NCBI GenBank assembly: GCA_020849725.1
Contig: JADLAZ010000282.1
Location: 72,294 to 136,293, forward strand
Source of the DNA: Chloroflexota bacterium
Lineage (GTDB): Bacteria > Chloroflexota > Chloroflexia > Thermomicrobiales > JADLAZ01
DNA length: 64,000 bases
Direction: 5' to 3'
Shown piece by piece: positions 8,506 through 48,528 of this stretch. The notes beneath the pieces were generated by a model that did no database searches, had not been told where the DNA came from, and was given only the letters and a program-made list of their open reading frames with translations. The position numbers and the translations under genes were made by a program. The stretch's first letter is position 1, and the number at the start of each line of letters is the position of its first letter.

Positions 8506-9381
8506 ATGGAGAAGTCGGGTGGCCGGCCCGCCGGCGCGGGAATGTCGGAAGCCGCCCTCCGGAAGGCGCTGGCCCAGCTGGCGCAGCGGCACCAGGCGCT
8601 GCAGGCCGAGTTCGCGCGCGTGCTCCAGGACCCGCGGGCCGCGGCCGCGGCGATCGAGCGCACCCAGCGGGAGGTCAATCGCCTCGCGGCGCGGCAGGCG
8701 CAGCTGGTCGCCGAGCTCCGCCTCGCCCGGCTCGAGGTGCCGGACCGGTACGGCGCACCCGGCGGCCTGGCCGGCCAGAGGCCGCTGCGCGAGCTCGTGC
8801 TCGACACGCTGGCCGAGCTCGGCGTGCCGGCGCCGCCGCGCGTCATCAGCGACTTCGCGCTAGCCACCCGCGGGTACGCGCTCCCGACCGACCGCTTCGC
8901 TTCGCTGCGGCGGGATGAGGAGCGCGCCTACCAGAAAGCGCCGGCGACGCGGCCGGCCTGGGTGGTGCCGGCCATCAACGCGCTCGGGCTGGCCGCGCTG
9001 GCGCGCATCGTCGCCCACTCCGCCTGGGAGCCCGCGCGGCGCGTGATCGGGTCGCGCACCCTGCGCACCAACCACCTGCGCACGCTCCTGGCGCTCCTGG
9101 AGCACGCCGAGCGGCTGGACGGCGGCCCGGCACCGCAGCTGGCCGCCCTGATCGCCCGGTACGCCGAGTCGGCGCCGGCGGCGCTCGCGCTCGGCGCGCC
9201 GCCCGACCACGCCCGCATCCGCGCGGCGGCCGAGGCGGAGCTGGCCCGCATCGAGCCGGCCGACGCGGCCGAGCGGCGCGAGGCGGCGGCGCGCCTGGAG
9301 GCGCTGCCCGAGCGCTATCGGTTGTGGGGGCGGCCGGCGCTCGTCGAGACCGGGGCGCCGGCCAGGAGGTCGTCGCCATGA
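8506..9381 (+). CDS. Coiled-coil plus winged-helix-like protein, first gene of an unnamed operon
   Basis: 291 residues from the ATG at 8506. An upstream ATG at 8275 is in frame, but the extension is Arg/His-rich and would run through the promoter. Residues about 10-75 form a long amphipathic coiled coil (LAQRHQALQAEF, VNRLAARQAQLVAELRLAR). A region resembling a winged helix follows (PLRELVLDTLAELG ... FASLRRDEERAY, about 85-140), then a helical domain to the end. I do not recognise the family. The stop codon overlaps the next gene's start (ATGA), so they are translationally coupled. It could be the DNA-recognition or regulatory subunit of the nuclease/helicase set downstream, and could bind the CGTGGA repeats. 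Both are inference. Confidence 0.6.
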   Translation: MEKSGGRPAGAGMSEAALRKALAQLAQRHQALQAEFARVLQDPRAAAAAIERTQREVNRLAARQAQLVAELRLARLEVPDRYGAPGGLAGQRPLRELVLDTLAELGVPAPPRVISDFALATRGYALPTDRFASLRRDEERAYQKAPATRPAWVVPAINALGLAALARIVAHSAWEPARRVIGSRTLRTNHLRTLLALLEHAERLDGGPAPQLAALIARYAESAPAALALGAPPDHARIRAAAEAELARIEPADAAERREAAARLEALPERYRLWGRPALVETGAPARRSSP

Positions 9382-10499
9382 CCGCCGCGCCCGCGACCCG
9401 CCAGGCCCGGCTGCGCGGCGCGCTCGCCGCGGATCAGCTCGGCGCGCGCGGCCTCGAGCGCACGGCGCGCAACCCCGCCTGCGGCCTGCTGAAGGCCCTG
9501 ACCATCGCCGGCCTCGCCCCGGCCACCGTCGTCGCCGCCGTCTACGGCGACCCGCCGCGCGAGGGCCAGTCCCCGTTCGCGCTGGCGGCCGGCAATCGCT
9601 TCGAGGCCCAGCTCTTCGACAGCGGCGCCGCCCGCCTGTTGGAGCTCTACCGCGGCCGGGGCCGCCTTGGCGTGGACGAGTGCCGGGTGGTCAGCGTCCC
9701 AGACGCCGCGCCGGGGACCACGGCCGCGGCGATGGCGCGGCGCCGGACGCTCACGGCGCGCCTGCTGCGGCTGAAGCTGGACGGCGACCCGGCCGCGCCG
9801 AACCTCATCATCAAGCCGCGGCTGACGGTCGGCCTCCTCGGCCTCGACTTCACCATCGAGCCGGACGCGCTCGTGGCCGCCGACGGCGACGCCTGTTACA
9901 CGCCGATCGAGGTCAAGAGTTACCCCGACCGCGACGGCAAGACCGACGCCGCCGACGTGCGGAGCGCCTGCCGGCAGGCGGGCGTGGCCGTGATCGCGCT
10001 GCGCGCGGCCGTCGCCCGCCTGGGCGCGCCGGTCCCCGAGGATCTCGTCCCGGCCCGCGGCGACCTGATCCTGCGCGTGCCCGGCGCCTACCGGCCGACG
10101 CTGCGGCCGATGGCGTTGCGGGGCGAGGTCGACTCGCTCGTCCGCGCCCTGGCCGAAGCGCCGCGCGACCTGGGCGAGCTGGAGCGGCTCGTCGCCGCTA
10201 TTGGCCCGGACGCGACCCTCGACGACCGGGCGGTGCTCGAGCAGCTGCCGAACAACTACCGGGAGAGCTGCCGCGAGTTCTGCGCCTTGGCGTCGCGCTG
10301 CAAGGAGCGGGCGGTGGCGCTGGGCGACCCGATCCTGCTCGGCAACCGGGCGCGCGAGGAGTTCGCGGCCGCTGGCTCGCTCGTCAGGGTCATCGAACTG
10401 CTGGAGGGTCGCGGCGCGCCGCCCCAAACAGCTGCCGAACAGGCGCTCCAGGCGCGCCTCCAGGAGGAGTACGGAGCGTTGAGGAGGGCAGTGAGCTGA
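9378..10499 (+). CDS. Cas4/AddB-like PD-(D/E)XK nuclease with predicted 4Fe-4S cluster
   Basis: 373 residues from the ATG at 9378 (AGGAGG upstream, ATGA overlap with the preceding gene). The nuclease core shows Glu76 in RFEAQLF, a PD at 162-163 (EPDALV) and Glu178-x-Lys180 in TPIEVKSY, the PD-(D/E)XK signature. CRQAGVAVIAL follows, where Gln200 fits the Cas4/RecB motif. One cysteine near the N-terminus (Cys35, NPACGLL) and three clustered near the C-terminus (Cys298, 302 and 308 in ESCREFCALASRC) reproduce the split arrangement of Cas4 and AddB iron-sulfur nucleases. No cas1/cas2 or CRISPR array is in the window, so a CRISPR role is unlikely. It probably works with the SF1 helicase two genes downstream on DNA ends or forks. 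Confidence 0.72.
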   Translation: MTAAPATRQARLRGALAADQLGARGLERTARNPACGLLKALTIAGLAPATVVAAVYGDPPREGQSPFALAAGNRFEAQLFDSGAARLLELYRGRGRLGVDECRVVSVPDAAPGTTAAAMARRRTLTARLLRLKLDGDPAAPNLIIKPRLTVGLLGLDFTIEPDALVAADGDACYTPIEVKSYPDRDGKTDAADVRSACRQAGVAVIALRAAVARLGAPVPEDLVPARGDLILRVPGAYRPTLRPMALRGEVDSLVRALAEAPRDLGELERLVAAIGPDATLDDRAVLEQLPNNYRESCREFCALASRCKERAVALGDPILLGNRAREEFAAAGSLVRVIELLEGRGAPPQTAAEQALQARLQEEYGALRRAVS

Positions 10500-11947
10500 T
10501 GGCCGGCGACCTCGACCTGCTCGCGCGCCTGCTCGCCTACCGGGATGGGCGGGCCTATCCGCGGGCCTCCCACCGACATGTGTCCATCCAGCCGGACGCG
10601 CTGGTGCTGGCGCCGCTGGCGCTGGCCGGCGAGGACACGACCATCCACATCGTGGCCTACGGGCCGATCGGCCGCCCGCCCCGCCTCCTGTGCGTGCCCG
10701 ACCCCCGCCAGCGCGACGACCAGTACCGCCTCTTCGCCGAGCTGGGCGCCGACATCGAGGATTACTTCCGGCGCTGCCGGGACGCGGGGCGCTTCCCTCA
10801 GATCTGGGTGTCGTCCGCGCCGGTGGCGGCGCACCTCGACACGCTGGCCGACCGCCTCCGTTACAACCGGCTGGACCCCGCCATCAAGCGCTTCGGGGAG
10901 CTGCTCTCCTACGCGACCGGCCGCCTCCCGGTCGCCGGCCAGCAGGCGCTGCTCACCGCGACCGGGGTGCTGGCGCTGCACTGGGCGACCGGCCAGCAGG
11001 ACGGCGAGGACGAGCACCTGGGCGCGCTCCTCACCTGGCTCGAGCCGCCGCCGGGTCGCGGCATCCTGGCGGCGGTGGCGGCGGCCGAGCTGGAGCCGAT
11101 GGGCGTCAAGACCGACCCCGACTTCGACCGCGACGAGCTGGCGCCGCTGGTCGGCGCCTACAACGCGGCCGCGCGCGCCGGTGCCGCCCCCGCCGCCCTG
11201 CGCGCCCGCGCCCGCCTCATCCGCGACGCGCTCGCGCCGGTCGCACGCCGCATCTACGCGGCGACGCAGCGCGCCGTCGCGCTCCTCAGGGACAGCGGCC
11301 GGCCGCCCCTCCCGGACCTGCCGGCGATGGATGCGCGCGAGGCCGCCGAGTTCGAGGGCTTCATGGCGGCGCGCGACGCGGCCATCCCCCTCGCGCTGCG
11401 CGACTCGCCCAAGGCCGCCGCCTTCGGGCTGGCCGGCCGGGAGCACGCGCTGGAGACGGCCGAGACGGCCGTGCTCCGCGGCGACCGGGTGGCGCGCGCC
11501 CGCGGCCGCCTGTCCGGCCGGGTGCTGCTCGGCGAGGTCGAGAACCCGCGCTCCACCCGCACGGGGCCGCGGCGCGTCGCCTACGGCTTCGACGTCCGCA
11601 GCCGCCAGCGCGTGCTCCACCTCCGTCGGCGCGACGAGCTCTGCTGGGTCGACGATCCCCGGCTGCGCGTGGTGGTCGAGGACGTGCGGCGCGACGGCGG
11701 CGCGACGCGCGTCTCGGTGCGGCTCCTGGCCGGCCAGCGCGCCGTCGGGCTGCCGACGGCCGGCGCCACCCTCGAGCTGGTCGAGCCGGCGCCGACGTGG
11801 GACGACATCTGGCGGGTGCGCGGCCACCTGAAGACCGTCCTGGCGGCCACGCCCTGGACGCACGCCGACGGCGGCATCCCGGCCCCAGCGCCGCCGGCCG
11901 CGCCGCCGGTGCCCGATCCGCTCGCCGCCGTCGAGGCGCTGCGATGA
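10499..11947 (+). CDS. Unrecognised 482-residue protein of the nuclease/helicase operon
   Basis: 482 residues. The ATG at 10499 shares a base with the upstream stop (TGATG). No known motif is visible. The first 100 residues are strand-rich with short charged loops. Residues about 100-330 are mostly helical, including FGELLSYATGRLPVAGQQAL and a DPDFDRDELAPLVGAYN segment. The last 130 residues look like a beta-barrel or OB/Tudor-like fold (RVLLGEVENPRS, RVVVEDVRRDGG). It is coupled by overlaps to a Cas4-like nuclease before it and an SF1 helicase after it, so it likely forms part of the same complex. No function can be assigned from sequence alone. Confidence 0.6.
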   Translation: MAGDLDLLARLLAYRDGRAYPRASHRHVSIQPDALVLAPLALAGEDTTIHIVAYGPIGRPPRLLCVPDPRQRDDQYRLFAELGADIEDYFRRCRDAGRFPQIWVSSAPVAAHLDTLADRLRYNRLDPAIKRFGELLSYATGRLPVAGQQALLTATGVLALHWATGQQDGEDEHLGALLTWLEPPPGRGILAAVAAAELEPMGVKTDPDFDRDELAPLVGAYNAAARAGAAPAALRARARLIRDALAPVARRIYAATQRAVALLRDSGRPPLPDLPAMDAREAAEFEGFMAARDAAIPLALRDSPKAAAFGLAGREHALETAETAVLRGDRVARARGRLSGRVLLGEVENPRSTRTGPRRVAYGFDVRSRQRVLHLRRRDELCWVDDPRLRVVVEDVRRDGGATRVSVRLLAGQRAVGLPTAGATLELVEPAPTWDDIWRVRGHLKTVLAATPWTHADGGIPAPAPPAAPPVPDPLAAVEALR

Positions 11948-13299
11948 GCGCGCCGCTCGCGCTGGCGGCGCCCACTCCCGCCGAGCTCGCCGATGAGGCG
12001 GTGCGGGCCGTCCTGCGCGCGCAGTGGGAGGGCGTGGCGGCCGTCCGCCTGGACTCGCCCCCCGGCGCCGGCAAGACCGGCGTCGTCGAGCGGCTGGCCG
12101 TGCAGTCGCTGGCGCTGCTGCGCGAGCGCTGCATGGTCGCCACCATGACCAACGAGCAAGCCTTCGACCTCGCCCGGCGCCTGGCCGGTGGCTACCCGCG
12201 CCTGCCGTTCACGCTCTTCGTCCGCGACGGGCTGGCCACGCCCGACGACCTGCCGGGCCTGCCGAACCTGCAACTCGCCCGCGCCTCCGCGCAGGTGCCC
12301 GCGGCCGGGCCGTGCGTCGTGATCGCGAACGCCGCCCGCTGGTCGTGGAGCGACGCGACCGCGTTCGCCCGCTTCGATCTCCTGGTGGTCGACGAGGCCT
12401 TCCAACTGCCCGACCACCGGTTCCAGCAGATCGCCGGGCTGGCCCGCCGGCTCGTCCTGGTGGGCGACCCCGGCCAGATCCCGCCCGTCGTCACCGGCGC
12501 GGTCGAGCGGTGGCGGTGCGACCCGGCCGGGCCGCACGTCGCCTGCCCGCGCGCGCTCGTCGCGCGCCACCCGGGCATCCGCCGGCTGGCCCTGCCGGTC
12601 TCGCGGCGGCTGGTGGCGGACACCGTCTGGGTCGTCCAGCCCGCCTTCTACCCCGAGTTGCCGTTCACCGCGCTGGCGGCACCGGGCGAGCGGGGCCTGG
12701 TCACGCGCGTGGCCGGGGCGACGCCGCTCGACCGCGCGATCGACCTCGCCGAGCGCGGCGCGAGCCTGGTCCAGGTCGAGCTGCCGGCGCAGATCATGGG
12801 CGAGGTGGACGAGGCCGTGGCCGACACGATCGTTGGCCTGATCCGTCGCCTGGCGGATCGCGGGACGCGCGTCCGGGACGACGGCGCCGAGCGGCCGCTC
12901 GACCCGGGCATGGTCGGCGTCGTGTGCGCGCACGTCGCCCAGGTGAACGCGGTGCGCGAGCGGCTGCCACGCTCCTTCGCCGACGTGCTCGTCGAGACGG
13001 CCGACCGGTTCCAGGGCCTGGAGCGGCCGGTCATACTCGACTACCACCCGCTCTCCGGCCGGGCCGACGCCGACGAGTTTCACCTCGATAGCGGGCGCAT
13101 GTGCGTGGCGCTCTCCCGGCATCGGGTGGCGTGTTTCGTCGTCGCGCGGGCGGGCATCAAGGAACTGCTGCTGCGCCACGCGCCGGGCGGCGACCGGGTG
13201 CTGGGCAGCGACGAGGACCGCGAGTACGAGGGATGGCGGGCGCAGGTCTTCGTCGTACAGGCGCTCAGGCGCCAGGGGAGGGTCGTGGCGCTCGGTTAG
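11944..13299 (+). CDS. SF1-type DNA/RNA helicase
   Basis: 451 residues from the ATG at 11944 (ATGA overlap with the preceding stop). Superfamily 1 motifs are in order: Walker A SPPGAGKTG (39-46), motif II LLVVDEAFQ (about 148-155), motif III LVGDPGQIPP, motif V ETADRFQGLERPVI and motif VI MCVALSRHRV. The motif V/VI style resembles Upf1/DNA2-like SF1B helicases more than UvrD. At about 450 residues it is a minimal helicase with no accessory nuclease domain. The Cas4-like gene two positions upstream could supply that activity, mirroring the nuclease-plus-helicase make-up of AddAB or Dna2. It is the last gene of the 8506-13299 operon; a 145-bp gap follows. Confidence 0.8.
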   Translation: MSAPLALAAPTPAELADEAVRAVLRAQWEGVAAVRLDSPPGAGKTGVVERLAVQSLALLRERCMVATMTNEQAFDLARRLAGGYPRLPFTLFVRDGLATPDDLPGLPNLQLARASAQVPAAGPCVVIANAARWSWSDATAFARFDLLVVDEAFQLPDHRFQQIAGLARRLVLVGDPGQIPPVVTGAVERWRCDPAGPHVACPRALVARHPGIRRLALPVSRRLVADTVWVVQPAFYPELPFTALAAPGERGLVTRVAGATPLDRAIDLAERGASLVQVELPAQIMGEVDEAVADTIVGLIRRLADRGTRVRDDGAERPLDPGMVGVVCAHVAQVNAVRERLPRSFADVLVETADRFQGLERPVILDYHPLSGRADADEFHLDSGRMCVALSRHRVACFVVARAGIKELLLRHAPGGDRVLGSDEDREYEGWRAQVFVVQALRRQGRVVALG

Positions 13300-13444: not shown

Positions 13445-14272
13445 ATGGGAACCCAGCACCATGACCAGGAGGCGGGCGCGTCCATCGAACCGCTCACCCA
13501 CCGCAACGCCGACGGCGTGGTGTACCGGCGCGAGCCCGTCGTCGAGCGCCAGATCACCGCGGCGCTTGCGCTGTCGCCCGACCGGCTGCGCGAGCGGGCG
13601 GCGGTGGCCGACCAGCAGGCGGGCGAGTACCTCCAGGAGGAGTGTCTGGTCTACCTGATCCGCCATTACCACCGCGCCGGCGACTCGGCCCTCGTGAGCG
13701 ATCTGTCGGCGGCGCTGCTGCGCCGCTGCGCCAAGCTTATCGAGGGCCATCTGCGCCGGCTGGACGCCGAGGCGGCGCGGGACGGGTACCACGACGTGGT
13801 CGAATGGCTATTCGCCCCGATCCTGGACCTCGCGAGCGATCGCGGCGATTTCCTCCAGGTGCGCTTCTGGCGCGCCCTGGAGAAGTTCGCGGTGCGCGCG
13901 TTCAGCCAGCAGCTCACCCTGCGCAAGCGCGCCCAGGCCGCCGTGCCGCTGTCGGCGCTCGCCGGCTACGATCGGGACGGCGGGGACGAGCCGGCGCAGG
14001 TCGTGCGGCCGCGCGACCTGGCGGCCGTCACCTCGACCTCGGGCGAGACGGCCGTGATCGAGCATGACCTGATCCGCGACGCGCTGAGCCGGATCGATGA
14101 GCCGTTCCGGTCTGCCTTCCTGCTCCGCTATCGCTTCGATTGGCCGATCGAGGACCAGGACCCGGCGGTGCGGACGATCAGTCGGCAGTTCGGCAAAGAC
14201 CCGCGCACCATCCGCAACTGGCTCAAGAAGGCCGAAGAGACCCTCAAGGGATGGCGAGGAGAACAGCGATGA
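13445..14272 (+). CDS. Sigma-70-like protein
   Basis: 275 residues from the ATG at 13445, preceded by GGAAGGAGGA (a TTG one codon earlier is also possible). The C-terminal 65 residues resemble sigma region 4: ALSRIDEPFRSAFLLRY, then TISRQFGKDPRTIRNWLKKAE, an HTH ending in a basic helix. The N-terminal 190 residues are helical with VYLIRHYHRAGDSALVS near 70 and could correspond to a diverged region 2. It would be an ECF-like or orphan sigma factor driving a local regulon. The next gene overlaps it by 4 nt, the usual arrangement of a sigma factor with its regulator. A plain HTH regulator is the alternative. Confidence 0.6.
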   Translation: MGTQHHDQEAGASIEPLTHRNADGVVYRREPVVERQITAALALSPDRLRERAAVADQQAGEYLQEECLVYLIRHYHRAGDSALVSDLSAALLRRCAKLIEGHLRRLDAEAARDGYHDVVEWLFAPILDLASDRGDFLQVRFWRALEKFAVRAFSQQLTLRKRAQAAVPLSALAGYDRDGGDEPAQVVRPRDLAAVTSTSGETAVIEHDLIRDALSRIDEPFRSAFLLRYRFDWPIEDQDPAVRTISRQFGKDPRTIRNWLKKAEETLKGWRGEQR

Positions 14273-14922
14273 ACGACCAGCAGGAGCGCCAGGCGCTCGA
14301 GGACGTGCTCGACGCGTTTGTCGCGTCCGGGGCCGGCCCCAACGACGCCTCGCTCGCCGAGTGGATCCGCCGCTATCCGCAGTACGAGCGCGAGCTGACC
14401 GAATTCGCGGCGAGTTGGAGCCTGATGACGTGGCTCCCACCGTCGCCTGAGACCGAAGACGTCGACGAGGAGACGCTCGTGCTGCGCGGGATGAGCGTCG
14501 TCCAGAACCTGCTCCACAAGCAGCAACAGGCGCCGGCCATCGCGCCCACCGTGGCCGTGGCTCCGTTCGAGAGCCTGGTCGCGGCGGGGCGCGCCCGCGG
14601 CCTGGCGCCGCGGCAACTCGCCCAGGCCGCCGGGCTCGGCGTCAGCCTGCTGCGCAAGCTCGACCGCCGCCTGATCCGCTACGGCTCGATCCCGCGCGAG
14701 GCGATCGCGGCGCTCGCCGCGGCGATCCAGCGCGAGGCCGAGGCCGTGGCCCGCTACCTCCAACAGAGTCCAACATTCGCCGCCGCGGCCCAGCACCGCG
14801 CCGAGCAGGCGCCCGAGCTCGCCGAGCCGGAGGACTTCTTCGCCGCCGTCGGCGCCGACCCGACCATGACGGACGAGCAGCGCGCCCGCTGGCTGGCGCT
14901 CGCGCCCCGCGACGGCCGCTGA
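14269..14922 (+). CDS. HTH protein, possible sigma partner or anti-sigma
   Basis: 217 residues; the ATG overlaps the sigma-like gene's stop (ATGA). The first 60 residues are acidic and helical (WIRRYPQYERELTEFAASW), like the cytoplasmic part of some anti-sigma proteins. Residues about 105-150 form an HTH-like segment (LAPRQLAQAAGLGVSLLRKL). The C-terminus is helical and acidic, with no membrane segment. It lies between a sigma-like gene and an ImmA/IrrE protease. ImmA and IrrE proteins are known to cleave HTH repressors (ImmR, DdrO), so this protein is a candidate substrate. That is inference from order alone. Confidence 0.5.
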   Translation: MNDQQERQALEDVLDAFVASGAGPNDASLAEWIRRYPQYERELTEFAASWSLMTWLPPSPETEDVDEETLVLRGMSVVQNLLHKQQQAPAIAPTVAVAPFESLVAAGRARGLAPRQLAQAAGLGVSLLRKLDRRLIRYGSIPREAIAALAAAIQREAEAVARYLQQSPTFAAAAQHRAEQAPELAEPEDFFAAVGADPTMTDEQRARWLALAPRDGR

Positions 14923-14944
14923 GCACCACGAGAGGGCGACGGGC

Positions 14945-17900
14945 ATGGGCCACTGGGACGATCTACGACGGCAGGCGCGGGCACGGCGCGTCGCGGTGCT
15001 GGCCGAGGCGGGAGGCGACCCGTCGGCGGTGGCGCTGCTGGCCGCGGCCGACCGGCTGACCGGGTACGGGCGGGTCGGCGTGCCCGGCGGCGACCCGCTG
15101 CTGGACGGCGGGCAGGCGGTGCTGGACCCCGACATGGAGGTGATCTGGTTCAACCGCGACGTCGCGCCCGGCCTGGCCCTGTTCTACCAGGCACACGAGT
15201 ATGCCCACTTCTGGCTGCACCACGAGCACACCGCCTGCCGCGCGGCGGACCTCGATCCCGAGGCCGTCGAGGAGCCGGTCCAGCTCGGGGTGCAGCGCGT
15301 CGAGGGCTACGGCCCGGAGGAGCGGCGCGAGCGCGAGGCGAACGTCTTCGCGCGCGAGTTCCTGCTGCCCGCCGACTTGCTCCGTGCCTGGTACGCGGCC
15401 GAGGGCCTGGACGCGACGGCGATCGCCGCCCGCGTCGGCCTGCCCGAGGGCATGGTCCTGCGGCAGCTCGCCACGGCGCTGCTGACGCCCGAGCTCGCCG
15501 AGGAGGGCGCGGCGCCGGGCGAAGCGGCGCCGGAGCGCCCACTGGACCGGAGCCAGGTGGCGGCGGCGCACGCGCCGCGCGGCCCGCTGCTCCTCGAAGC
15601 CGGCCCCGGTACCGGTAAGACGGCCACGCTCATCGGGCGCGTCGTCTTCCTCTTGCAACAGGGGGCGCCGCCGTCCGCCATCCTGGCGCTGACCTTCTCG
15701 AACCGCGCCGCCGAGGAGATGCGGGCGCGCGTGGCCCGCACCGAGCCGGAGGCCGCGCCGCGGATCTGGATGGGCACCTTCCACGCCTTCGGCCTGGAGC
15801 TGCTGCGCAAGTACGGCGCCCGCCTCGGCCTGCCACCCCGCCCCGACGTGCTCGACCCGGCCGACGCGGTGGCCCTGCTCGAGCGAGCGCTGCCGGAGCT
15901 GGGGCTCGACCATTACCAGAACCTCTACGAGCCAACGACCTACCTGCGCGACATCCTGTCGGCCATCTCGCGCGCCAAGGACGAACTCGTCGGCCCGGAC
16001 GAGTACGCCGCCCTGGCCGAGCGGATGCGCGCCGACGCGACCGATGCGACGCAGGTGGAGGCCGCCGAGAAGGCGCTCGAGGTGGCGCGCGTCTACGCCC
16101 GCTACCAGGCGCTCCTCGACCGCGAGCACCGGCTCGACTTTGGCGACCTGATCGCCAAGGCGGTGCGCCTGCTGCGGGCGCACCCCGACGTCAGGGACGA
16201 GGTGCGCCGGAGCTACCGGCACGTCCTCGTCGACGAGTACCAGGACGTCAACCGCGCCAGCGGGCTGCTGCTGCGCGAGCTCGCCGGCGCCGGCGCGGGC
16301 CTCTGGGTCGTCGGCGACGCCCGGCAGGCGATCTACCGCTTCCGCGGCGCGGCGCCCGCCAACATGCGCCTCTTCCCTCAGGACTTCCCCGGCGCCTCGG
16401 TGAAGGTGCTCGGGCGCAACTACCGCTCGCAGCCGATGATCGTCGACGTCTTCGCCGGCCTGGCCCCGGCGATGCGCGCCGCGCGGGGCGGCGTGCCCTT
16501 CACGCCCTGGCAGCCCCACCGGCCAGACGACGGTGGCCGGGTGCTGATGGAGATCGCCGACGACCTGGCGGCGGAGGGGGACGGGCTGGCGCGGGAGATC
16601 GAGCGGCAGCGCGCGGCCGGCATCCCCTATCGCGAGCAGGCCGTCCTGTGCCGCTCGCACAGCTACCTCGGCAAGATCGCCGCCCAGCTCGAGCGGGCCG
16701 GCGTGCCCATGTTGTACCTCGGCGACCTGTTCGAGCGCCCCGAGGTGCGCGACCTGCTGGCCGTGCTGGCGCTGGCGTGCGAGGGCGACGGGCACGGCCT
16801 GATGCGCGTGGCGCGGTTCCCCGAGTACCAGATCCCGCTGGCCGACGTGCGCGCCCTGCTCACGCTGGCGCGCGAGCGGGATGTCCCCTTTCCGCGCGCC
16901 CTCGACCTGGCGCGGGACGCCGACGGCATCTCGCCCGGCGGCCAGGAGCGGCTCGCCCTCCTGGCGCGCCACTTGGACGGCCTCTGCTACGGCAGCCACG
17001 CCTGGCCGATGCTGGCGCGGTACCTGTTCGTCCGCAGTACCTACCTGCGTCCGGTGCTGGGCGACGAGTCGGTGGCCGGGCAGCAGCGTCGGCTGGCGCT
17101 CTACCAGTTCCTCCAGTTCGCCCACGAGCAGCGGTCCGCGGCGCCACCCGGCGCGTGGGTCGACCCGAAGCGGTTCTTCCTCCAGTACGTGCGCCGCCTG
17201 GAGATCTTCGGCGAGGAGCGGCAGCTCCGGCAGGTGCCGGGCTGGGCCGACGGCATCGACGCCGTCCGTCTGCTCACCGTACATGCCAGCAAGGGGCTCG
17301 AGTTCCGTGCCGTTTACCTGCCCGCGCTGGGGCAGGGGATCTTCCCGGCCCGGCGCCAGGGTCGGCCCTGCCCGCCGCCGGTCGGGATGCTCGCCGCCGC
17401 CGGCGACGACCACGACGAGGAGGAGGAGTGCCTGTTCTTCGTGGCGCTCTCGCGGGCGCGGGACGTGCTCTGCCTCGCGCGCGCCCAGCGCTACGGCAAC
17501 CAGAACAGCAATCCGTCCAGCCTGCTCCTGTCGATCGCCGGCCTCCTCCCCACGCGCCCCGGTGGCCCGGCCACCTGGCCGTCGGCGGCAACCGCGCCGC
17601 CGCCGGCGGCCGACCCGCCGCCGGCGGTACTGCCTTTCCATGTGGAGGCTCTGGACGTCTACATCGGCTGCCCGCGCCAATTCTTCTACGAGTTCGTCCT
17701 CGGCCTGAGCGGCAAGCGCGAGGACTCGGCCTACGTCCAGTTCCACGGCTGCGTCTACCGGGTGCTGCGCTGGATGGCGGACGAGCGGGCCGACGGCCAG
17801 CCCGTCGACGCGGCGGCGGCGCTGGCGCGCCTGGCGGAGGCCTGGGCGGAGCACGGCCCGCGCGATCACCCGTACGAGGCGCTCTACCGTCGCAGCGCCG

Positions 17901-18346
17901 AGGCGATGGTGCTGCGGGCGGCGGGCCGGCCGATCCGCTCGCGGGGGCCGGCCGCGCGCCCCGAGTGGGAGGTGCGGCTGCCGCACGGCCGCGTCCGGTT
18001 CACGCCGGACCACGTCGAGGCCCTCGAGGACGGCAGCGAGGTCGTGGAGCGGCTGCGCACCGGCCGCCCCAGCCAGAGCGAGCTTGCCAAGGATATCTAC
18101 GCCCTCTACCAGGTGGCGGCCCGGGAGGCGAGGCCGCGGGCGCCGCGGCGCGTGCAGGTGCGCTACCTGTCGAGCGACCACGTCGAGCAGGTCGACCTGA
18201 GCAGGCGGACAATCGAGACGCGCCTGGGCCGGTATGACGCGGCCATCGCCGGCATCCTGCGCGAGGAGTTCCCGGCGCAGCCCAATGACCGCGTCTGCCC
18301 GCGCTGCCCCCACTACTTCATCTGCCCGCTCGCCGAGGACGCCTGA
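14945..18346 (+). CDS. ImmA/IrrE protease - UvrD helicase - AddB-like C-terminal fusion
   Basis: 1133 residues. Domain 1 (1-185) is an ImmA/IrrE zinc peptidase with HEYAH at 84-88 and the family's second motif REREANVFAREFLLP ending at 142. Domain 2 (about 200-870) is a UvrD/Rep SF1A helicase: Walker A EAGPGTGKT (218-226), LVDEYQDVN (motif II), VVGDARQAIYRFRGA (motif III), VRLLTVHASKGLEFRAVYLP (motif V) and FFVALSRARDVL (motif VI). Domain 3 (about 895-1133) is RecB/AddB-nuclease-like with Cys909 and Cys1118, 1121 and 1127 placed as in 4Fe-4S nucleases. The expected DYKTG catalytic motif reads VVERLRTG, so the nuclease may be inactive or structural. It is a very unusual fusion that could couple DNA-damage or phage sensing to proteolysis of a regulator. 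Confidence 0.82.
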   Translation: MGHWDDLRRQARARRVAVLAEAGGDPSAVALLAAADRLTGYGRVGVPGGDPLLDGGQAVLDPDMEVIWFNRDVAPGLALFYQAHEYAHFWLHHEHTACRAADLDPEAVEEPVQLGVQRVEGYGPEERREREANVFAREFLLPADLLRAWYAAEGLDATAIAARVGLPEGMVLRQLATALLTPELAEEGAAPGEAAPERPLDRSQVAAAHAPRGPLLLEAGPGTGKTATLIGRVVFLLQQGAPPSAILALTFSNRAAEEMRARVARTEPEAAPRIWMGTFHAFGLELLRKYGARLGLPPRPDVLDPADAVALLERALPELGLDHYQNLYEPTTYLRDILSAISRAKDELVGPDEYAALAERMRADATDATQVEAAEKALEVARVYARYQALLDREHRLDFGDLIAKAVRLLRAHPDVRDEVRRSYRHVLVDEYQDVNRASGLLLRELAGAGAGLWVVGDARQAIYRFRGAAPANMRLFPQDFPGASVKVLGRNYRSQPMIVDVFAGLAPAMRAARGGVPFTPWQPHRPDDGGRVLMEIADDLAAEGDGLAREIERQRAAGIPYREQAVLCRSHSYLGKIAAQLERAGVPMLYLGDLFERPEVRDLLAVLALACEGDGHGLMRVARFPEYQIPLADVRALLTLARERDVPFPRALDLARDADGISPGGQERLALLARHLDGLCYGSHAWPMLARYLFVRSTYLRPVLGDESVAGQQRRLALYQFLQFAHEQRSAAPPGAWVDPKRFFLQYVRRLEIFGEERQLRQVPGWADGIDAVRLLTVHASKGLEFRAVYLPALGQGIFPARRQGRPCPPPVGMLAAAGDDHDEEEECLFFVALSRARDVLCLARAQRYGNQNSNPSSLLLSIAGLLPTRPGGPATWPSAATAPPPAADPPPAVLPFHVEALDVYIGCPRQFFYEFVLGLSGKREDSAYVQFHGCVYRVLRWMADERADGQPVDAAAALARLAEAWAEHGPRDHPYEALYRRSAEAMVLRAAGRPIRSRGPAARPEWEVRLPHGRVRFTPDHVEALEDGSEVVERLRTGRPSQSELAKDIYALYQVAAREARPRAPRRVQVRYLSSDHVEQVDLSRRTIETRLGRYDAAIAGILREEFPAQPNDRVCPRCPHYFICPLAEDA

Positions 18347-18820: not shown

Positions 18821-19342
18821 ATGACCCAGCACGGCAAGCGTGACGAGATCGAGCTCTTCCTCCAAGGGGAGGGCATCCGCGACATCGCATTGATGCGGGT
18901 GCCGCGCGACGGCACCGCCCGCGACATCATCGAGGCCGCCCGGGCGCTCGGCCTGAGCGCCCCGTCCGGGGCAGAGACGCTGCTCCTGGTCGAGGATAGC
19001 GAGGAGCCGCTGGCGCTGGACGCGCCCCTCGAGGCGGCCGGCATCGCCCATCGGGGCCGCGTGCATGTACACCGGTGCCGGCGGGTGGCGGTGACGGTCA
19101 ACTTCAACGCCGACCAGAACATGGAGTCGTTCCCGCCCTCGACCACGATGGCGCGGGTGAAGCGGTGGGCGGTCGGCAAGCACGGCTTCGGCCTTTCGGA
19201 GATCGACGCCGCCGAGCACCTGCTCCAGGTGTGCGGCTCGACCGACCGGCCCGACGAGGACGTCCACATCGGCGCGCTGGTGACGGCGCCGGCCTGCGGG
19301 CTGTGCTTCGACCTCGTCGCCAAGCAGCGGGTGGAGGGCTGA
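18821..19342 (+). CDS. bilA: Ubiquitin-like modifier with two beta-grasp domains (BilA-like)
   Basis: 173 residues, ATG with AGGAGGA 7 nt upstream. Two tandem beta-grasp-like segments are visible. The first (about 8-88) opens IELFLQGEGIRDIALMRVPR. The second (about 88-170) opens VAVTVNFNADQNMESFPPS, echoing the strand-loop-strand start of ubiquitin-like and multiubiquitin domains. The C-terminus ends RVEG, a single terminal glycine after a basic/acidic tail, suitable for adenylation without processing. The double-Ubl layout is like ISG15 and like BilA of bacterial Bil antiphage systems, in which the modifier is conjugated to phage tail proteins. Gene order (Ubl, E2, JAB, E1) supports the call strongly; the fold is inferred from pattern. 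Confidence 0.78.
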   Translation: MTQHGKRDEIELFLQGEGIRDIALMRVPRDGTARDIIEAARALGLSAPSGAETLLLVEDSEEPLALDAPLEAAGIAHRGRVHVHRCRRVAVTVNFNADQNMESFPPSTTMARVKRWAVGKHGFGLSEIDAAEHLLQVCGSTDRPDEDVHIGALVTAPACGLCFDLVAKQRVEG

Positions 19343-19345
19343 GCG

Positions 19346-19834
19346 GTGTTCGAGACGCCGATCGCGCCGGACGAGCGGGTCTTCCGGGCGCACCTGGCGG
19401 CCGGCCCGTTCCAGAGCGGGGTCGACCGCGGGCGCTGGCGGCTGCTGTCGATCGCCTGGCCGCACGCGGTTGTCGCGGTCAGCGCGGCCGAGCGCCCGGG
19501 CGGCCCCGCCGAGTACGCGCTGCGCTTCGAGTGCTCGGACTACCCGCAGACCTCCCCGACCGCCCAGCCGTGGGACGCGGAGCGCGCCGCGCCGCTCGAG
19601 CATGCCCGGTGGCCGGGCGGCCGCTCGCGGCTCCCGCTCGCCTTCAACCCCGGCTGGAAGGGCGGCCGGTGCCTCTACCTGCCGTGCGACCGGCTCTCAA
19701 TCGAGGGCCACGACGGCTGGCGCAGCCAGCACCCCGCGTTGATTTGGTCCCCGGCCGGGGACATCACCCAGTACCTGAGGATCGTCCATGACCTTCTCAC
19801 TTCGGGCGACTATTCGGGCCCTCGCGGCGCCTAG
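19346..19834 (+). CDS. bilB: E2-like ubiquitin-conjugating enzyme (BilB-like)
   Basis: 162 residues from a GTG at 19346 with GGAGGG 6 nt upstream, 3 nt after the Ubl stop. The pattern fits UBC-fold E2s of bacterial systems: a central [12 protein letters not shown] (the YP...P signature of UBC beta strands), then [16 protein letters not shown] with Cys109 as candidate catalytic cysteine (Cys114 is the alternative). An alpha-helical end carries [20 protein letters not shown]. It would take the modifier from the E1 encoded two genes later and transfer it to targets. Its 3' end overlaps the JAB gene by 47 nt in another frame. Confidence 0.78.
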
Positions 19835-20309
19835 GCACCGGCTCTGCTGCTCGACCAGGCTCTGGCGGGCGGGGCTGGCCGAGCTCGCGCGGCGCGGCCA
19901 GGGACGGCGCGAGAGCGGCGCCTTCCTGCTCGGGCATCAGCGCGGGCCGCGCCGCGCCATCGAGCGGTTCGTCTACTACGACGACCTGGACCCGCATTGC
20001 CTGGACACCGGCATCGTCATCTTCGACGGTGCCGGCTATGGCCCGCTGTGGGCGCTGTGCCGCGAGACGGGGCTGCGCGTGGTGGCGGACGTCCATTCTC
20101 ACGGCTGCGCGCCGCGCCAGAGCTCACTCGACCGCGACAACCCCATGGTCGCCACGCCGGGGCACGTCGCGCTGATCGTGCCCGACTTCGCCCGGCGGGT
20201 GGTCGGTCCGGCAGAGCTGGGCGTCTACGAGTATCAGGGCGAGCATCGCTGGCGCGACCACAGCGGGTGCCAGGCGGGGCGGTTCTTCTACATGGGGATG
20301 TGGGGGTAG
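19788..20309 (+). CDS. bilC: JAB/MPN-family deubiquitinase-like peptidase (BilC-like)
   Basis: 173 residues; the ATG lies inside the end of the E2 gene. The JAMM zinc-peptidase motif is present: Glu42 (ESGAFLLG), then His103 and His105 with Ser112/113 and Asp115 in [15 protein letters not shown]. It is followed by [20 protein letters not shown], a tail typical of JAB proteins linked to bacterial E1/E2 genes. The spacing between the second His and the Ser is one residue shorter than in eukaryotic JAMM enzymes, which I associate with this bacterial subfamily. It would process the modifier or remove it from conjugates. Confidence 0.82.
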
Positions 20310-20311
20310 CC

Positions 20312-21688
20312 ATGACCAAGACGGTCCGACCCGACCAGCTGCACCGGCTGGTCAAGCTAGCGCTCGACAGCGGCGAGGCGCACAGCCTCGAAGAGGCCGA
20401 GCGGCTGTTCGCGGGCTACCGGCTCGGCGTCGATGTGGGGCGCGACGTGGCCGGCTCGCCGGCGCTGCAGGCGGCGGTCTTAACGGCCGTGAACACCGCG
20501 CGGCGCAGCTTCCTCGGCGGAGTCCAGGTCTCGGGTGACCTCGCGATGCCGCTTCGCGTGCCCTGGGGCCGCTGCCGGACGCTCGGAGAGGCGGTCATGG
20601 ATCTGCAAGGCTGCGTCGTCGGCAGCATCGACCGCGAGCTGCCGCGCATCGTCGTCGGCGACGGACAGGCGGGGACCGGGGACGGGCGGTTCGCCGTGCG
20701 CGCCACGTTCGACGGTTGGGCGGGCGGGGTGGTCCCACTCGACGACGGGCGCCGGCTGCCGGAGCGGCAGGAATGCGTGCCGGCCGGCGTCCTGGCGGGC
20801 GGACTCGCGGTCTCTGAGGCATTCCAGTTCGTCCGCGGCGGCAACGTCGCCGCCGGACGCCGGGAGGTGGGCCTGTCGCTCTGGCGCCCGGAACCGGAGG
20901 TGTCCTGGCTGGCCGCCGGCGACCCTGGGCCCGCGCTGGAGCGGCTGCCGTCGAGGCTGTGGGTGATCGGGCTCGGGCATCTGGGCCAGGCCTACCTGTG
21001 GACGCTCGGGTTACTGCCGTATGCCGAGTCGGATGAGGTGGAACTCGTCTTGCAAGACTATGACACGCTCGCGCAGGCCAACGACAGCACCTCGCTCCTC
21101 ACCAGGGCTTGCCTCCTCGGCCAGAAGAAGACCCGCGCCATGGCCTGCTGGTGCGAGGATCGCGGGTTCCGGACGACGATCCAGGAACGGCGCTTCGCCG
21201 GCGACTTCCGAATCGCGCCCGACGAGCCGAGCGTCGCCCTCTGCGGTGTGGATAGTGCGCTGGCGCGGGCCGCGCTAGAGGATGTCGGCTTTGGCCGCGT
21301 CGTCGAAGCCGGGCTCGGCGCCGGCCCGCAGGAGTGCCTGGCGTTCCAGATGCACTCCTTCCCGGCCGCTCGTGCGGCGCGGGCGCGCTGGGGCGGCGGG
21401 GACAAGGCGCCCGCCACCGAGGTGCTGCTCGACCGACCGGCCTACCGCGCGTTGGCCGAGGCCGGCGTCGACGAGTGTGGCCTCACCACCCTGGCCGGTC
21501 GCACGGTCGGGGCACCCTTCGTCGGGGCCGTGACGGCGGCGATCGTGGTGGCCGAGCTGCTGCGCATGGCCATCGGCGAGCACCGCTACGAGGTGATCGA
21601 CGGCAGCTTACGGTCGCTCGGGAACCGGCAGGCCGTGCGAAGCGACTTGGGCGGGCCATTCAACCCAGGGTCGACGCGGGCGGCGTGA
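20312..21688 (+). CDS. bilD: E1-like ThiF-family activating enzyme (BilD-like)
   Basis: 458 residues, ATG 2 nt after the JAB stop. The N-terminal 210 residues are a family-specific domain. The ThiF/E1 Rossmann domain begins at about 215 with LWVIGLGHLGQAYLWTLG (ATP-binding GxGxxG at 220-225), then LVLQDYDTLAQANDSTSLLT (Asp and Arg/Asn positions of E1 adenylation sites). Cys389 (VDECGLTTLAGRTVGAPFVG) is a candidate catalytic cysteine, followed by the helix AIVVAELLR found in E1-like proteins. It should adenylate the Ubl and pass it to the E2. It closes a compact four-gene operon, 18821-21688. Confidence 0.82.
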   Translation: MTKTVRPDQLHRLVKLALDSGEAHSLEEAERLFAGYRLGVDVGRDVAGSPALQAAVLTAVNTARRSFLGGVQVSGDLAMPLRVPWGRCRTLGEAVMDLQGCVVGSIDRELPRIVVGDGQAGTGDGRFAVRATFDGWAGGVVPLDDGRRLPERQECVPAGVLAGGLAVSEAFQFVRGGNVAAGRREVGLSLWRPEPEVSWLAAGDPGPALERLPSRLWVIGLGHLGQAYLWTLGLLPYAESDEVELVLQDYDTLAQANDSTSLLTRACLLGQKKTRAMACWCEDRGFRTTIQERRFAGDFRIAPDEPSVALCGVDSALARAALEDVGFGRVVEAGLGAGPQECLAFQMHSFPAARAARARWGGGDKAPATEVLLDRPAYRALAEAGVDECGLTTLAGRTVGAPFVGAVTAAIVVAELLRMAIGEHRYEVIDGSLRSLGNRQAVRSDLGGPFNPGSTRAA

Positions 21689-26444: not shown

Positions 26445-27725
26445 ATGTCCGTCTCAAGACAAGCACAGAGTACGGCAACCTTTGACCCGCATAGGAGTAA
26501 GAATGGCAACCTAATTCCATGCCCGCTGACCAACGAGGATGCAACGGAAGCCGCAGCGGGGTTGGTGGACATCATCTACCTCGACAACAACGCATCTACG
26601 GCTCCGGAACCAGAGGTCTCGGAAGCGGTGGGGTGGGCACTTCGTGACCTGTACGCGAATCCCTCGAGTCAGCACCCAGCTGGCAGACGTGCCGCTGCGT
26701 CCGTGGAGCGGGCGCGGGAACAAGTCGCCGCGCTCATCTCGTGTGCGCCGAGGGCCATCACCTTCACCTCGGGTGCTAGCGAGGCCGACGGCCTGGCAAT
26801 ATGCGGTCTGTGGGAGGGAAACCGTGCGGTCGGCTTGCGCCGTAACACCGTCATCGTCGGCGCGACTGAGCATGCTGCGGTGTTGGAGTCCGCTCGTTCC
26901 CTGAGAGCTGCGGGCGCGCGCGTTATCGAAGCCCCTGTGGACCGGTTCGGGATGATCGCCCTCGACGCTCTCAGGAAGCTCGTGGACGAGGACGTCCTCC
27001 TAGTCTCCGTGATGGCGGCCAACAGTGAGACCGGCACCCTGGCGCCACTTTCCGAGGTGGCGGCTATCGCGAAGGAATGTGGCGCATACGTCCACACCGA
27101 CGCGACCCAGTATGTGGGTCGTCTCTCCCTAGATATGGAAGCGCTCGACTTGGACATGGTGTCTCTCAGCGGCCACAAGATGCACGGCCCTAAGGGCGTA
27201 GGGGCACTCGCTGTGCGGCGAGGGGTTCCGATAGCGCCGCGGATCCGGGGCGGTGGGCACGAGCGTGGGCTGCGTTCCGGTACCCTCAACACCCCCGGAA
27301 TCGTCGGGCTCGGCGTTGCGGCTGAACTTGCCCTAGGGCGCTTCGGGGACACCGAGGCAATGGCAGGCTTAAGGAATCGCCTCCATCAGGGGCTCAGTGC
27401 CCGATTGGACGGGGTCCACCTCAATGGCCATCAGACCGAGCGCCTTCCCAATACGGTCAACCTGCGATTCTCGGGGGCAGACGCCGAGGCGGTGATGACG
27501 TCGCTGAGGCGAGTGGCGTGCTCTGCTGGCAGCGCGTGCAGTTCGGGCATACCAGCCCCGTCGCATGTGCTCGTAGCCATGGGCCTAAGCCCCCAGGAGG
27601 CCCACCAAAGCCTGCGGTTCAGCTTATCGCGGAACACTACGACAGCCGATGTAGATGCTGCGATTGACGAGCTCGTCGCTGCGGTCACATTCGTGCGCGA
27701 GTCAAGTCCCGCTATGGGTGCCTGA
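26445..27725 (+). CDS. dndA: Cysteine desulfurase (DndA/IscS type)
   Basis: 426 residues. Class V PLP aminotransferase fold: IIYLDNNASTAPEPEV (about 43-58), NPSSQHPAGRRAA, then TSGASEADGLAICG, THTDATQ-type strand and SLSGHKMHGPKGVGAL, whose Lys245 is the PLP Schiff-base residue. The catalytic loop CSAGSACSSGIPAPSHVL holds Cys365 as persulfide acceptor. It supplies sulfur for DNA phosphorothioation together with the PAPS-reductase-like protein encoded at 32265. The first 40 residues are an unconserved extension; an alternative later start is possible but no better site is visible. The next gene starts 3 nt downstream. Confidence 0.88.
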   Translation: MSVSRQAQSTATFDPHRSKNGNLIPCPLTNEDATEAAAGLVDIIYLDNNASTAPEPEVSEAVGWALRDLYANPSSQHPAGRRAAASVERAREQVAALISCAPRAITFTSGASEADGLAICGLWEGNRAVGLRRNTVIVGATEHAAVLESARSLRAAGARVIEAPVDRFGMIALDALRKLVDEDVLLVSVMAANSETGTLAPLSEVAAIAKECGAYVHTDATQYVGRLSLDMEALDLDMVSLSGHKMHGPKGVGALAVRRGVPIAPRIRGGGHERGLRSGTLNTPGIVGLGVAAELALGRFGDTEAMAGLRNRLHQGLSARLDGVHLNGHQTERLPNTVNLRFSGADAEAVMTSLRRVACSAGSACSSGIPAPSHVLVAMGLSPQEAHQSLRFSLSRNTTTADVDAAIDELVAAVTFVRESSPAMGA

Positions 27726-27728
27726 GCT

Positions 27729-28745
27729 ATGAACCGTGTCGATGAAGCCGCCGCCGAGGTCTTCGCGCGTCACGAGACCTTTCACCCGCGTTACGGCTGG
27801 TTCCGAAAGGCGGTAATAGCGGCAGCGAAGGCGCCGGATGTGTTCACAAGAGAGGATGCTCCGGTCGAACTCGGGGTGGGCAAGAACATGGTGCGCGCCA
27901 TCCGTTTCTGGGGGAAGGCCGCGAAGCTGCTTGCAGACGTCGATGACCCACAAAGGCCACGCCTCGCGTCGACCGTCCCCTCTTGGAATGGGGCAGCTCT
28001 TCTTGGCGAACAGCCGGGCCTCGATCCTTATCTCGAGCTGCCTGGCTCCCTCTGGCTCCTCCACTGGTGGATGTTGGCCAAGCTGTCCTGGCTGCCTGTC
28101 TGGTGGATCACCTTCAACCAGTTCGGGTCGGTCGAGTTCTCTGAAGAGGATCTTCTAGGGGCTGTTCTGGATGAGTTGCGACGCGTACCTTCCTGGGCTC
28201 TGCCCGTCGAGGCATCCATTAAGAAGGATGTGGATTGCCTGCTGCGCATGTACGCCCCACGCGTTGCTGGTCGCTTCGCGCTCGATGACCTTCTCGACTG
28301 CCCCTTCCGTGAGTTGGGCTTGCTGGAGACTGTCTGGGACGATGCCCACCGGTACCGCTTCGTTATCGGCGCCAAGCCCACTTTGCCGGCCGAGATCGTC
28401 GCCTACGCCTCCCTGGAGTACCTCGCCGTAACCGATCCAAGCGCTCGCACCAGCACTTTAAGCCGCTTGGCGCTGAGCCATGGGGGACCCGGGCGGGTGT
28501 TCAAGCTTACCGAGCAGGCCCTCGCGACAGCATTAGAGGACTACGGAACGACACACAACGGCGTCTGGCTAACGTCGGCAGCCGGGGTGCTGCAGTTAGC
28601 CGTGGATGGTGATCCTAGGCAGCAGGCCGTCGAGGCGCTCCGGGCCTACTACCGACGGGCCGGCCACCGAGTAGAGGGTTCGCTCACGCTCGGTGAGCAT
28701 GCTGCTATGCGCGAGCTAGAGTCCGTTACGGGGGGAAGTCGCTGA
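27729..28745 (+). CDS. DUF4007 protein of phosphorothioation clusters
   Basis: 338 residues, start 3 nt after the desulfurase stop. The opening ARHETFHPRYGWFRKAV followed by ELGVGKNMVRAIRFW is what I recognise as DUF4007, a family found beside cysteine desulfurase genes in DNA-phosphorothioation and BREX-like loci. The N-terminus suggests a DNA-binding helical domain (GVGKNMVRAIRFWGKA), and the rest is helical with conserved Trp-rich segments (LLHWWMLAKLSWLPVWW). Its role is not established. The stop overlaps the next gene's ATG (TGATG), so stoichiometric production with the large ATPase is likely. Confidence 0.72.
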   Translation: MNRVDEAAAEVFARHETFHPRYGWFRKAVIAAAKAPDVFTREDAPVELGVGKNMVRAIRFWGKAAKLLADVDDPQRPRLASTVPSWNGAALLGEQPGLDPYLELPGSLWLLHWWMLAKLSWLPVWWITFNQFGSVEFSEEDLLGAVLDELRRVPSWALPVEASIKKDVDCLLRMYAPRVAGRFALDDLLDCPFRELGLLETVWDDAHRYRFVIGAKPTLPAEIVAYASLEYLAVTDPSARTSTLSRLALSHGGPGRVFKLTEQALATALEDYGTTHNGVWLTSAAGVLQLAVDGDPRQQAVEALRAYYRRAGHRVEGSLTLGEHAAMRELESVTGGSR

Positions 28746-33086: not shown

Positions 33087-33092
33087 GGATCC

Positions 33093-35231: not shown

Positions 35232-35270
35232 GAAAGTACAACTACTACCAGATCGAAGGAGGATGACGGC

Positions 35271-35492
35271 GTGGCTTCAGCAAGGCTCGTGGTCGATGCG
35301 ATCAAGCGACGGTGCGGCGACGTTGAGCCGCGCTTCGATGATTACCAAGAGGAACTGCTCACCACTGTCGTCGAGATCCTTTCGCGAGAGCGCGAGCACC
35401 GCATTTCCCCGACGAACATCCAGCAAAAAGTGCAGGATCACATCGAGGTGTTGGGAGACCAGCTCTGGGGGAGCTCTGAGAGGAAGGCGTAG
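35271..35492 (+). CDS. Small phosphorothioation-associated protein
   Basis: 73 residues from a GTG at 35271 with AAGGAGGA 8 nt upstream, which makes translation convincing. Fully helical (FDDYQEELLTTVVEILSRER), ending GDQLWGSSERKA. It resembles the small proteins that accompany DndD-like CxC ATPases in DNA-modification clusters, and the DndD-like gene follows after 14 nt. No catalytic motif. It is probably a structural or regulatory partner of that ATPase. Confidence 0.65.
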   Translation: MASARLVVDAIKRRCGDVEPRFDDYQEELLTTVVEILSREREHRISPTNIQQKVQDHIEVLGDQLWGSSERKA

Positions 35493-35506
35493 GAGTACTC
35501 TATTCC

Positions 35507-45141: not shown

Positions 45142-45156
45142 GCCGGGGAGCGCGCC

Positions 45157-46766: not shown

Positions 46767-46847
46767 GGCTCTCCCGCGCTTCGCGTGACGGCCAAGGCCA
46801 GGGTAAGATCGACCCCTTAGCTGCGGTCTCGTCAGGAGGGGCCGGCC

Positions 46848-48506: not shown

Positions 48507-48528
48507 GGAGAGCGGAGCCGTGGGCGGG

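Follow-up and report, generated by a model that had tools for sequence, protein, structure and literature searches.

What kind of machine is encoded by four overlapping genes of a Chloroflexota bacterium, in which a nuclease and a small helicase are combined with two proteins of no named family? The genes are located on the forward strand at positions 8506 to 13299 of a stretch of 64,000 nucleotides (nt) of contig JADLAZ010000282.1 (assembly GCA_020849725.1), referred to here as the window. Gene 1 (P0001, 8506..9381) encodes 291 amino acids (aa) from the ATG at 8506, gene 2 (P0002, 9378..10499) a Cas4/Dna2-like Fe-S PD-(D/E)XK nuclease of 373 aa, gene 3 (P0003, 10499..11947) an 'orphan' of 482 aa with a predicted exonuclease-like domain and a predicted stalk/beta-barrel, and gene 4 (P0004, 11944..13299) a minimal Upf1/Dna2-like helicase core of superfamily 1B (SF1B) with 451 aa. 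The successive overlaps are 4, 1 and 4 nt, in agreement with the initial annotation of this DNA. Our best explanation, to which we assign a probability of about 0.6, is a helicase-nuclease on the plan of Dna2 and the TM0106 family that is split into separate genes at domain borders and is linked to defence in its four-gene form. We regard the split Dna2-type architecture in itself as quite probable; a defence role of the four-gene form, as judged from its neighbours, is somewhat favored.

The motor of the cassette is identified by its sequence. P0004 matched Pfam AAA_12 over the cut-off (E 1.2e-9), and its sequence matches were headed by Dna2 (E 5e-10) and IGHMBP2, the DNA-binding protein SMUBP-2 (196–260 and 364–610 of the PDB sequence, E 8e-11), and also included Upf1. 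Assignment as a Upf1/Dna2-like SF1B motor is supported by these matches, which also bear out the label of a minimal SF1 helicase given before. The Walker A codons for G41-A42-G43-K44 (12064..12075, forward strand) are invariant in 17 of 17 sequences. P0004 begins at RecA domain 1A, approximately where the barrel of IGHMBP2 ends, with about 40 residues ahead of Walker A, and the stalk and domain 1B that should precede motif I are not found ahead of it in this protein.

These parts are predicted to reside in the orphan. Single-chain structure prediction of P0003 (predicted local distance difference test, pLDDT, 93.4; predicted template modelling score, pTM, 0.88) gave a Upf1-like stalk plus beta-barrel (domain 1B) at residues 301–447 (11399..11839, forward strand), and when the model was compared with known structures, this C-terminal half matched the stalk/barrel at the N-terminus of IGHMBP2, SETX and Sen1. 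IGHMBP2 is covered from 6 to 159 by the orphan and from 196 to 610 by the helicase; Dna2 was a Foldseek match of P0003 with a probability of 0.97, reported without aligned range. The combination of an oligonucleotide-binding (OB) fold and a stalk is described as characteristic of UPF1/DNA2-like helicases in PMC11090510. The initial annotation had considered the orphan foreign to the Dna2 plan, which is contradicted by the stalk and barrel that the model predicts for it.

The N-terminal half of P0003 appears to be an exonuclease-like DEDDy fold (residues 32–270; 10592..11308, forward strand) whose catalytic acids were apparently lost. In 29 P0003 sequences inspected by eye no Exo I acid pair was found; the aspartate at the would-be Exo II position is retained outside the actinobacteria and not within them, and E170/D171 persist. 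Over 132 sequences E45, D210, D302 and D329 are invariant, and the columns that are at least 95% acidic yield no clear DEDD set. An active exonuclease was therefore judged unlikely; E45, which directly follows strand 1 and never varies, may be left over from the original site or belong to one that has shifted. PF13482 (RNase_H_2) was not matched at E ≤ 1, although the fold is DEDDy-like by structure, and structural fold searches left the idea of a new fold unsupported. Of the structure predictions proposed at the outset for all four proteins and their complexes, those of P0001 and P0003 were carried out, each as a single chain.

P0002 carries conserved residues E76, E161/D163 and E178-x-K180 together with C35, C298, C302 and C308, which we take to be the motifs of a Cas4-like nuclease, although no Pfam, NCBIfam or PADLOC model gave this label. 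The codons of E178-V-K180 (ExK motif) are located at 9909..9917 and that of C35, the first of the four putative Fe-S cysteines, at 9480..9482, followed by those at 10269, 10281 and 10299, all on the forward strand. The Dna2-type pattern (E, D, ExK, four cysteines) is intact in the window. NCBIfam gave one sub-cut-off match for P0002. The earlier label of a Cas4-like Fe-S nuclease is hence backed by conserved residues and known motifs rather than by a profile.

For P0001, translation from ATG 8506 yields 291 aa and from ATG 8542 279 aa, while the database gene call has 297 aa; ATG 8542 is probably the true start because of the codon scan and because homologues are mostly 279–286 aa long. The single-chain model (pLDDT 90.5) shows an antiparallel coiled coil (16–78), three helices plus two strands (95–172) and a helical end. 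Residues 95–172 may be a winged-helix-turn-helix (wHTH)-like domain, since the modelled helices and strands follow one another as in such a domain, and the PDB matches span little beyond the coiled coil. Of the predicted coiled-coil/HTH protein, the coiled coil is supported by model and PDB matches, the wHTH part by element order in the model. P0001 would be an accessory subunit of the four-gene form.

Do the four genes belong together? The order gene 1, nuclease, orphan, helicase recurs in Alphaproteobacteria and actinobacteria (loci L001–L014, L022–L024 and L147–L158), with the qualification that the helicase match of L001 spans 251 aa and that L008 is cut inside gene 1. Twenty-one loci originated from a single scan of genome contigs for three peptide patterns, three from a plasmid search (one of them on an 11.85-Mb record), and further ones from genome searches. 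Overlaps recur in the alphaproteobacterial homologues, mostly with 4, 8 and 4 or 1 nt, whereas a gap of about 50 nt separates gene 1 from gene 2 in the Streptomyces plasmids. Among 64 short loci fetched via the orphan (62 distinct places), a nuclease open reading frame (ORF) precedes the orphan in all 64 and a helicase ORF is present in 61. The arrangement is not due to chance, because the nuclease adjoins the orphan in every one of these loci and the helicase accompanies it in nearly all. No helicase match was found in L127, L128 and L135, the last located at a contig start. L127 (genome G919) and L128 (G823) are actinobacterial nuclease-orphan pairs with no recognizable helicase within about 1.5 kb downstream; the motor may have been replaced by another one there. 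Long open frames in Streptomyces were rejected as gene fusions proving a complex, as they are GC-rich read-past frames. Thus, the single conserved unit assumed by the initial annotation was recovered, and the genome and plasmid searches revealed the four-gene set beside defence genes in unrelated bacteria.

With regard to known systems, the earlier statement that none could be named agrees with the searches made. Among the best candidates scored, at least 360 relatives of P0003, 179 of P0002 and 123 of P0001 were found, mostly unnamed proteins listed without gene neighborhoods; for P0003 the closest match listed under a name was P0060 from a Chloroflexota metagenome-assembled genome (61% identity), and none of 120 listed P0003 relatives had a Pfam domain. 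For P0001, P0002 and P0003 no Pfam family exceeded the cut-off and no PADLOC-DB 2023 model matched at E ≤ 0.01. No cassette match was detected in phage records or viral contigs, and predicted viral structures gave nothing convincing, so a phage origin was rejected. A description of such a cassette was not found in the open-licence PubMed Central (PMC) literature, subscription papers being outside this search.

Dna2 consists of an Fe-S Cas4-like nuclease, a stalk/barrel and a Upf1-like motor. The cassette would have the same parts but distributes them over three separate genes, so that nuclease and helicase are not one polypeptide, and it has an added exonuclease-like domain and a fourth, wHTH/coiled-coil protein; the sequence match to Dna2 is one to its motor and not over the full length. 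The TM0106 family (TIGR03491) shares the order of nuclease, DEDDy fold (predicted for the orphan), unassigned stretch and SF1B motor. The four fused proteins tested, found via TIGR03491, contain a nuclease, RNase_H_2, 230–260 unassigned residues and AAA_11/19/30; they differ from the cassette in being one polypeptide with a recognizable RNase_H_2 domain, and neither P0002 nor P0003 matched TIGR03491 at E ≤ 0.01 in NCBIfam, or PF13482 in Pfam. We therefore keep resemblance to Dna2 and TM0106 in the way of working apart from membership in that family. A Upf1-like motor is also shared with CoCoNuT CnuH, Mokosh, Hhe, ProA and PLuB, and P0004 gave five weak PADLOC matches, to the MkoA, MkoC, Hhe, ProA and PLuB models; these defence helicases are, in contrast, large single proteins with models of about 1100–1900 positions. 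AddAB and AdnAB likewise have a helicase and an Fe-S nuclease in one operon, but their motors are UvrD-like and belong to SF1A. Identity with AddAB or RecBCD is unlikely because the P0004 motor is Upf1-like (AAA_12) and its UvrD-helicase match (E 0.25) lies under the Pfam cut-off. From the split Dna2/AddAB proposed initially, the Dna2 half is thus supported by motor, predicted stalk/barrel and nuclease, and the AddAB half is not.

The four-gene form is accompanied by other modules that adjoin the cassette in actinobacteria and are not parts of it. Fourteen actinobacterial quartets with context were compared (L022–L024, L147–L154 and L156–L158; the quartets of G875, G786 and G856 are outside this count). 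SbcC/SbcD genes lie divergently beside gene 1 in eight of them (L022, in pieces, L023, L147, L148, L152, L153, L154 and L157) and pPIWI-RE genes in four (L149, L150, L151 and L156), the latter assigned by hidden Markov models on L151 and by clustering for the others, with the PIWI gene inside the fetched stretch in L150 and L151 only. Neither was found in L024 and L158. In the accessible part of PMC3702460 pPIWI-RE is described as a three-gene operon and UPF1 is not mentioned. Wadjet (JetABCD) occurs downstream in 2/14 quartets, L022 and L023, both also SbcCD-linked, and was rejected as a constant partner. Since L022/L023/L147 and L149/L150/L151/L156 are close relatives, the independent partner events are fewer than these counts. 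The linked SbcD (105–126 bits) is divergent and additional to a 179–200-bit SbcD elsewhere in 6/6 SbcCD-linked genomes tested, and G663 carries, close to its ends, one more SbcD pair that scores 185 bits; a single SbcD was seen in the five others, namely four pPIWI-RE-linked genomes and G007. Processing of DNA ends beside SbcCD is conceivable, at slightly less than even odds. Large neighbors are present downstream in L157 (11909–14149), L151 (13234–16410) and L152 (13552–16593); they are a ResIII/HA helicase, an SNF2-like helicase (PADLOC C3a139) and a protein of 1013 aa that no Pfam family matched.

In Alphaproteobacteria the neighbor is a DNA methyltransferase, c4 (N6_N4_Mtase, E 1.4e-14 in L005), which adjoins 13 of the 14 loci with full flanks; L001 is the one without it, L008 and L015 are cut, and L009 and L011 are near-identical. 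In nine of the 13 linked loci c4 lies about 55–125 bp upstream on the same strand, and in L009, L011, L013 and L155 it is reversed or divergent. The region concerned in L009, L011 and L013 lies at about 5.3–8.0 kb, and in L009 ORFs that we take to be RES- and Xre-like stand between the reversed methyltransferase and the cassette. Ten large flank proteins of alphaproteobacterial loci were chosen for comparison with PADLOC, a small sample and not a statistic: five matched at E ≤ 4e-27, to PDC-M01A and PDC-M01B (both L003, candidate models), PD-T7-1 (L009), TmtA (L013) and SoFic (L002), and five had no match at 1e-5.

The nuclease is not intact in all copies. Position 178 of the nuclease is acidic in 158 of 177 aligned sequences and non-acidic in 19 (L003–L014, L155, L149, L150, L151, L156, also counted as L136, and P0143), some places being present twice. 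Nuclease residues are lost in 4/4 pPIWI-RE-linked copies, in which position 76 is also changed to H and position 180 to R, and in 12/13 methyltransferase-linked copies, with D163 lost as well in L006, L010 and L012; the pattern is intact in the methyltransferase-linked L002 and in all seven SbcCD-linked copies printed. The Fe-S cysteines behave differently from this pattern: C298, C302 and C308 are present in 176/176 sequences and C35 in 153 of 154 without a gap there, the exception carrying W. Hence the nuclease pattern was lost at least twice with the Fe-S ligands retained, and from this the Fe-S cluster and the motor seem to be essential, whereas cutting does not.

In the mechanism we propose, P0004 would be the motor; for SF1B enzymes a 5′-to-3′ polarity is expected. 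P0003 would provide the stalk and the 1B barrel in trans, carried on an apparently dead DEDDy exonuclease scaffold, the Fe-S nuclease module P0002 would receive the translocated strand, and P0001 would serve as DNA-binding/coiled-coil adaptor in the accessory form. The complex could load on DNA ends or on single-stranded DNA that a partner exposes, such as SbcCD where it is linked, the nucleases of pPIWI-RE, Wadjet or an attack on unmethylated DNA. It would then unwind the DNA, and an intact nuclease would degrade it, thereby removing phage or plasmid DNA. Only tentatively do we extend this to a modular defence engine, an obligately split SF1B helicase with swappable recognition modules (a dedicated Mre11-Rad50 pair, pPIWI-RE, Wadjet or a methyltransferase), in which the nuclease is lost where the partner makes it redundant and from which the Streptomyces core form was domesticated.

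Several findings weigh against a split, defence-linked Dna2-type enzyme. P0003 has no Foldseek match with an E-value of 0.001 or lower, its template modelling scores by query are at most 0.2, and SETX and Sen1 align with a root-mean-square deviation of about 7 Å. When profiles were compared with those of 24 fused TM0106 proteins (usable from 33 extracted), P0003 gave no match (probability 0.5%), so a profile link between orphan and TM0106 was dropped, and P0002 gave a weak match with motifs in register (3%). No fusion among cassette genes occurred in the 64 orphan-fetched loci. Degradation of DNA is not the function of all members, because the nuclease is degenerate in 19/177 sequences. The quartet contexts stem from few, partly closely related, chosen lineages, the window and the searched actinobacterial loci yielded no relative of c4, and neighbors in defence islands can be bystanders. 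A purely defensive role is further opposed by the near-core status of the orphan in Streptomyces, where 187 of 199 genomes have it. When ten flank proteins were taken from a single core locus of this genus, two gave weak PADLOC matches (1.4e-7) and the others none.

This Streptomyces locus is chromosomal (L016–L020) and contains nuclease, orphan and helicase without gene 1, with the same ordinary neighbors in each case. Within L016–L021 the trio is flanked in L016, the only one annotated by Pfam, by PAP2 and luciferase-like monooxygenase genes; the neighbor gene clusters of L016 are shared by most of the other loci in this group. In the orphan tree (60 sequences) the actinobacterial clade has quartets in basal positions and the trio of Streptomyces nested, which suggests that the trio arose by loss of gene 1; the tree is midpoint-rooted with some long branches and some unreliable labels, L131 being the same place as quartet L158 and L136 as L156, so that 'trio' labels of 4.5-kb loci are not reliable. 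Nine further genomes of the class to which Streptomyces belongs have the orphan without gene 1 (G919, G823, G787, G802, G867, G876, G838, G857 and G828). Because the orphan is near-core in Streptomyces and the chromosomal trio has ordinary neighbors, the machine is not solely a defence system.

An enzyme of DNA repair or chromosome-end maintenance, whose accessory copies would be spare repair enzymes with defence neighbors beside them incidentally, could explain this near-core occurrence, the orphan in 29 of the 197 genomes from the class that contains G007 (that of Streptomyces), the conserved ordinary flanks of the trio and the partnership with SbcCD, itself a repair complex. We nevertheless consider it unlikely for the cassette as a whole, given the distribution of the four-gene form. 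In the class of G004 (Alphaproteobacteria) 0/384 genomes besides the query's own gave a match, with up to four candidates scored per genome, and in the genus of G005 (Bradyrhizobium) 3/146 did, two of these being the query genome and the genome of L011. Furthermore, the quartet adjoins pPIWI-RE, Wadjet or a methyltransferase, and gene 1, found in 8/27 and 6/16 chosen genomes, tracks extra orphan copies: among chosen genomes of the genus Streptomyces it occurs in 10 of 11 with at least two orphan matches and in 0 of 19 with one. The lone miss is G714, whose two matches are possibly pieces of one. In G663 and G584 gene 1 is present near each end of a chromosome-size contig, at a distance of about 24 kb, as expected for terminal inverted repeats. 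The best reading is a three-gene form domesticated in Streptomyces and an accessory, defence-linked four-gene form. Housekeeping loci, which the initial annotation regarded as contrary to a defence system, are therefore represented by the near-core trio, while the plausible defence role it proposed is in accordance with the patchy quartets beside defence genes.

Less probable still is a restriction-modification-like system, in which self DNA would be marked by the linked methyltransferase and DNA without the mark would be the target of the helicase complex. The regular linkage of c4 and its close same-strand position in most alphaproteobacterial loci are as such a system would have it, but c4 was not found in the window and the searched actinobacterial loci, is reversed or divergent in four linked loci, and stands beside nucleases of which 12/13 have lost position 178. 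An action on RNA-DNA hybrids like that of Sen1/senataxin, e.g. in clearing or sensing invader R-loops, is the least probable alternative. Sen1, SETX, Upf1 and Aquarius do occur among the proteins matched by P0003 in structure and by P0004 in sequence, but Dna2 and IGHMBP2 head the sequence matches, the operon carries a Cas4/Dna2-like Fe-S nuclease, and the neighboring SbcCD, Wadjet and methyltransferases act on DNA.

The surroundings of the cassette in the window (GC content 0.62–0.80 per 2-kb step, no tRNA) agree largely with the initial annotation. Pfam and PADLOC confirmed an IrrE/ImmA-UvrD-PDDEXK gene and the ubiquitin-like BilA and BilD; of the macro-SIR2 neighbor, SIR2 was found and a macro domain was not by Pfam at E ≤ 1e-3. 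Positions 13445–18346 comprise a sigma-70-region-4-like gene (sub-cut-off), which overlaps by 4 nt with a 217-aa gene without Pfam match, and at the end the IrrE/ImmA-UvrD-PDDEXK fusion of 1133 aa. The Bil genes (18821–21688) consist of BilA, DUF7665, a sub-cut-off Prok-JAB and BilD. An Ssp/Pbe-type (phosphorothioation-like) defence region at 26445–37642 contains DUF4007, SspC, SspD, PbeA and PbeC as well as a presumably IscS-like ORF, and has a GC content of about 0.62–0.66 versus 0.71–0.77 in the first 22 kb. Further downstream (42843–49479), an ISL3 transposase ORF (46848–48506) lies between an ImuB-like gene (IMS domain) and gene pieces that we assume to be DnaE2-like.

Upf1/Dna2-type helicases usually hold stalk and barrel within the motor protein, and a widespread natural split would allow both halves to be assayed separately. 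In eukaryotic end resection Mre11-Rad50 acts with Dna2; the extra SbcCD (Mre11-Rad50) copy beside a Dna2-like engine parallels this and could become a tractable two-module model. Finally, a testable function is offered for the P0003 family with its at least 360 members and for a very common, apparently unnamed locus of Streptomyces.

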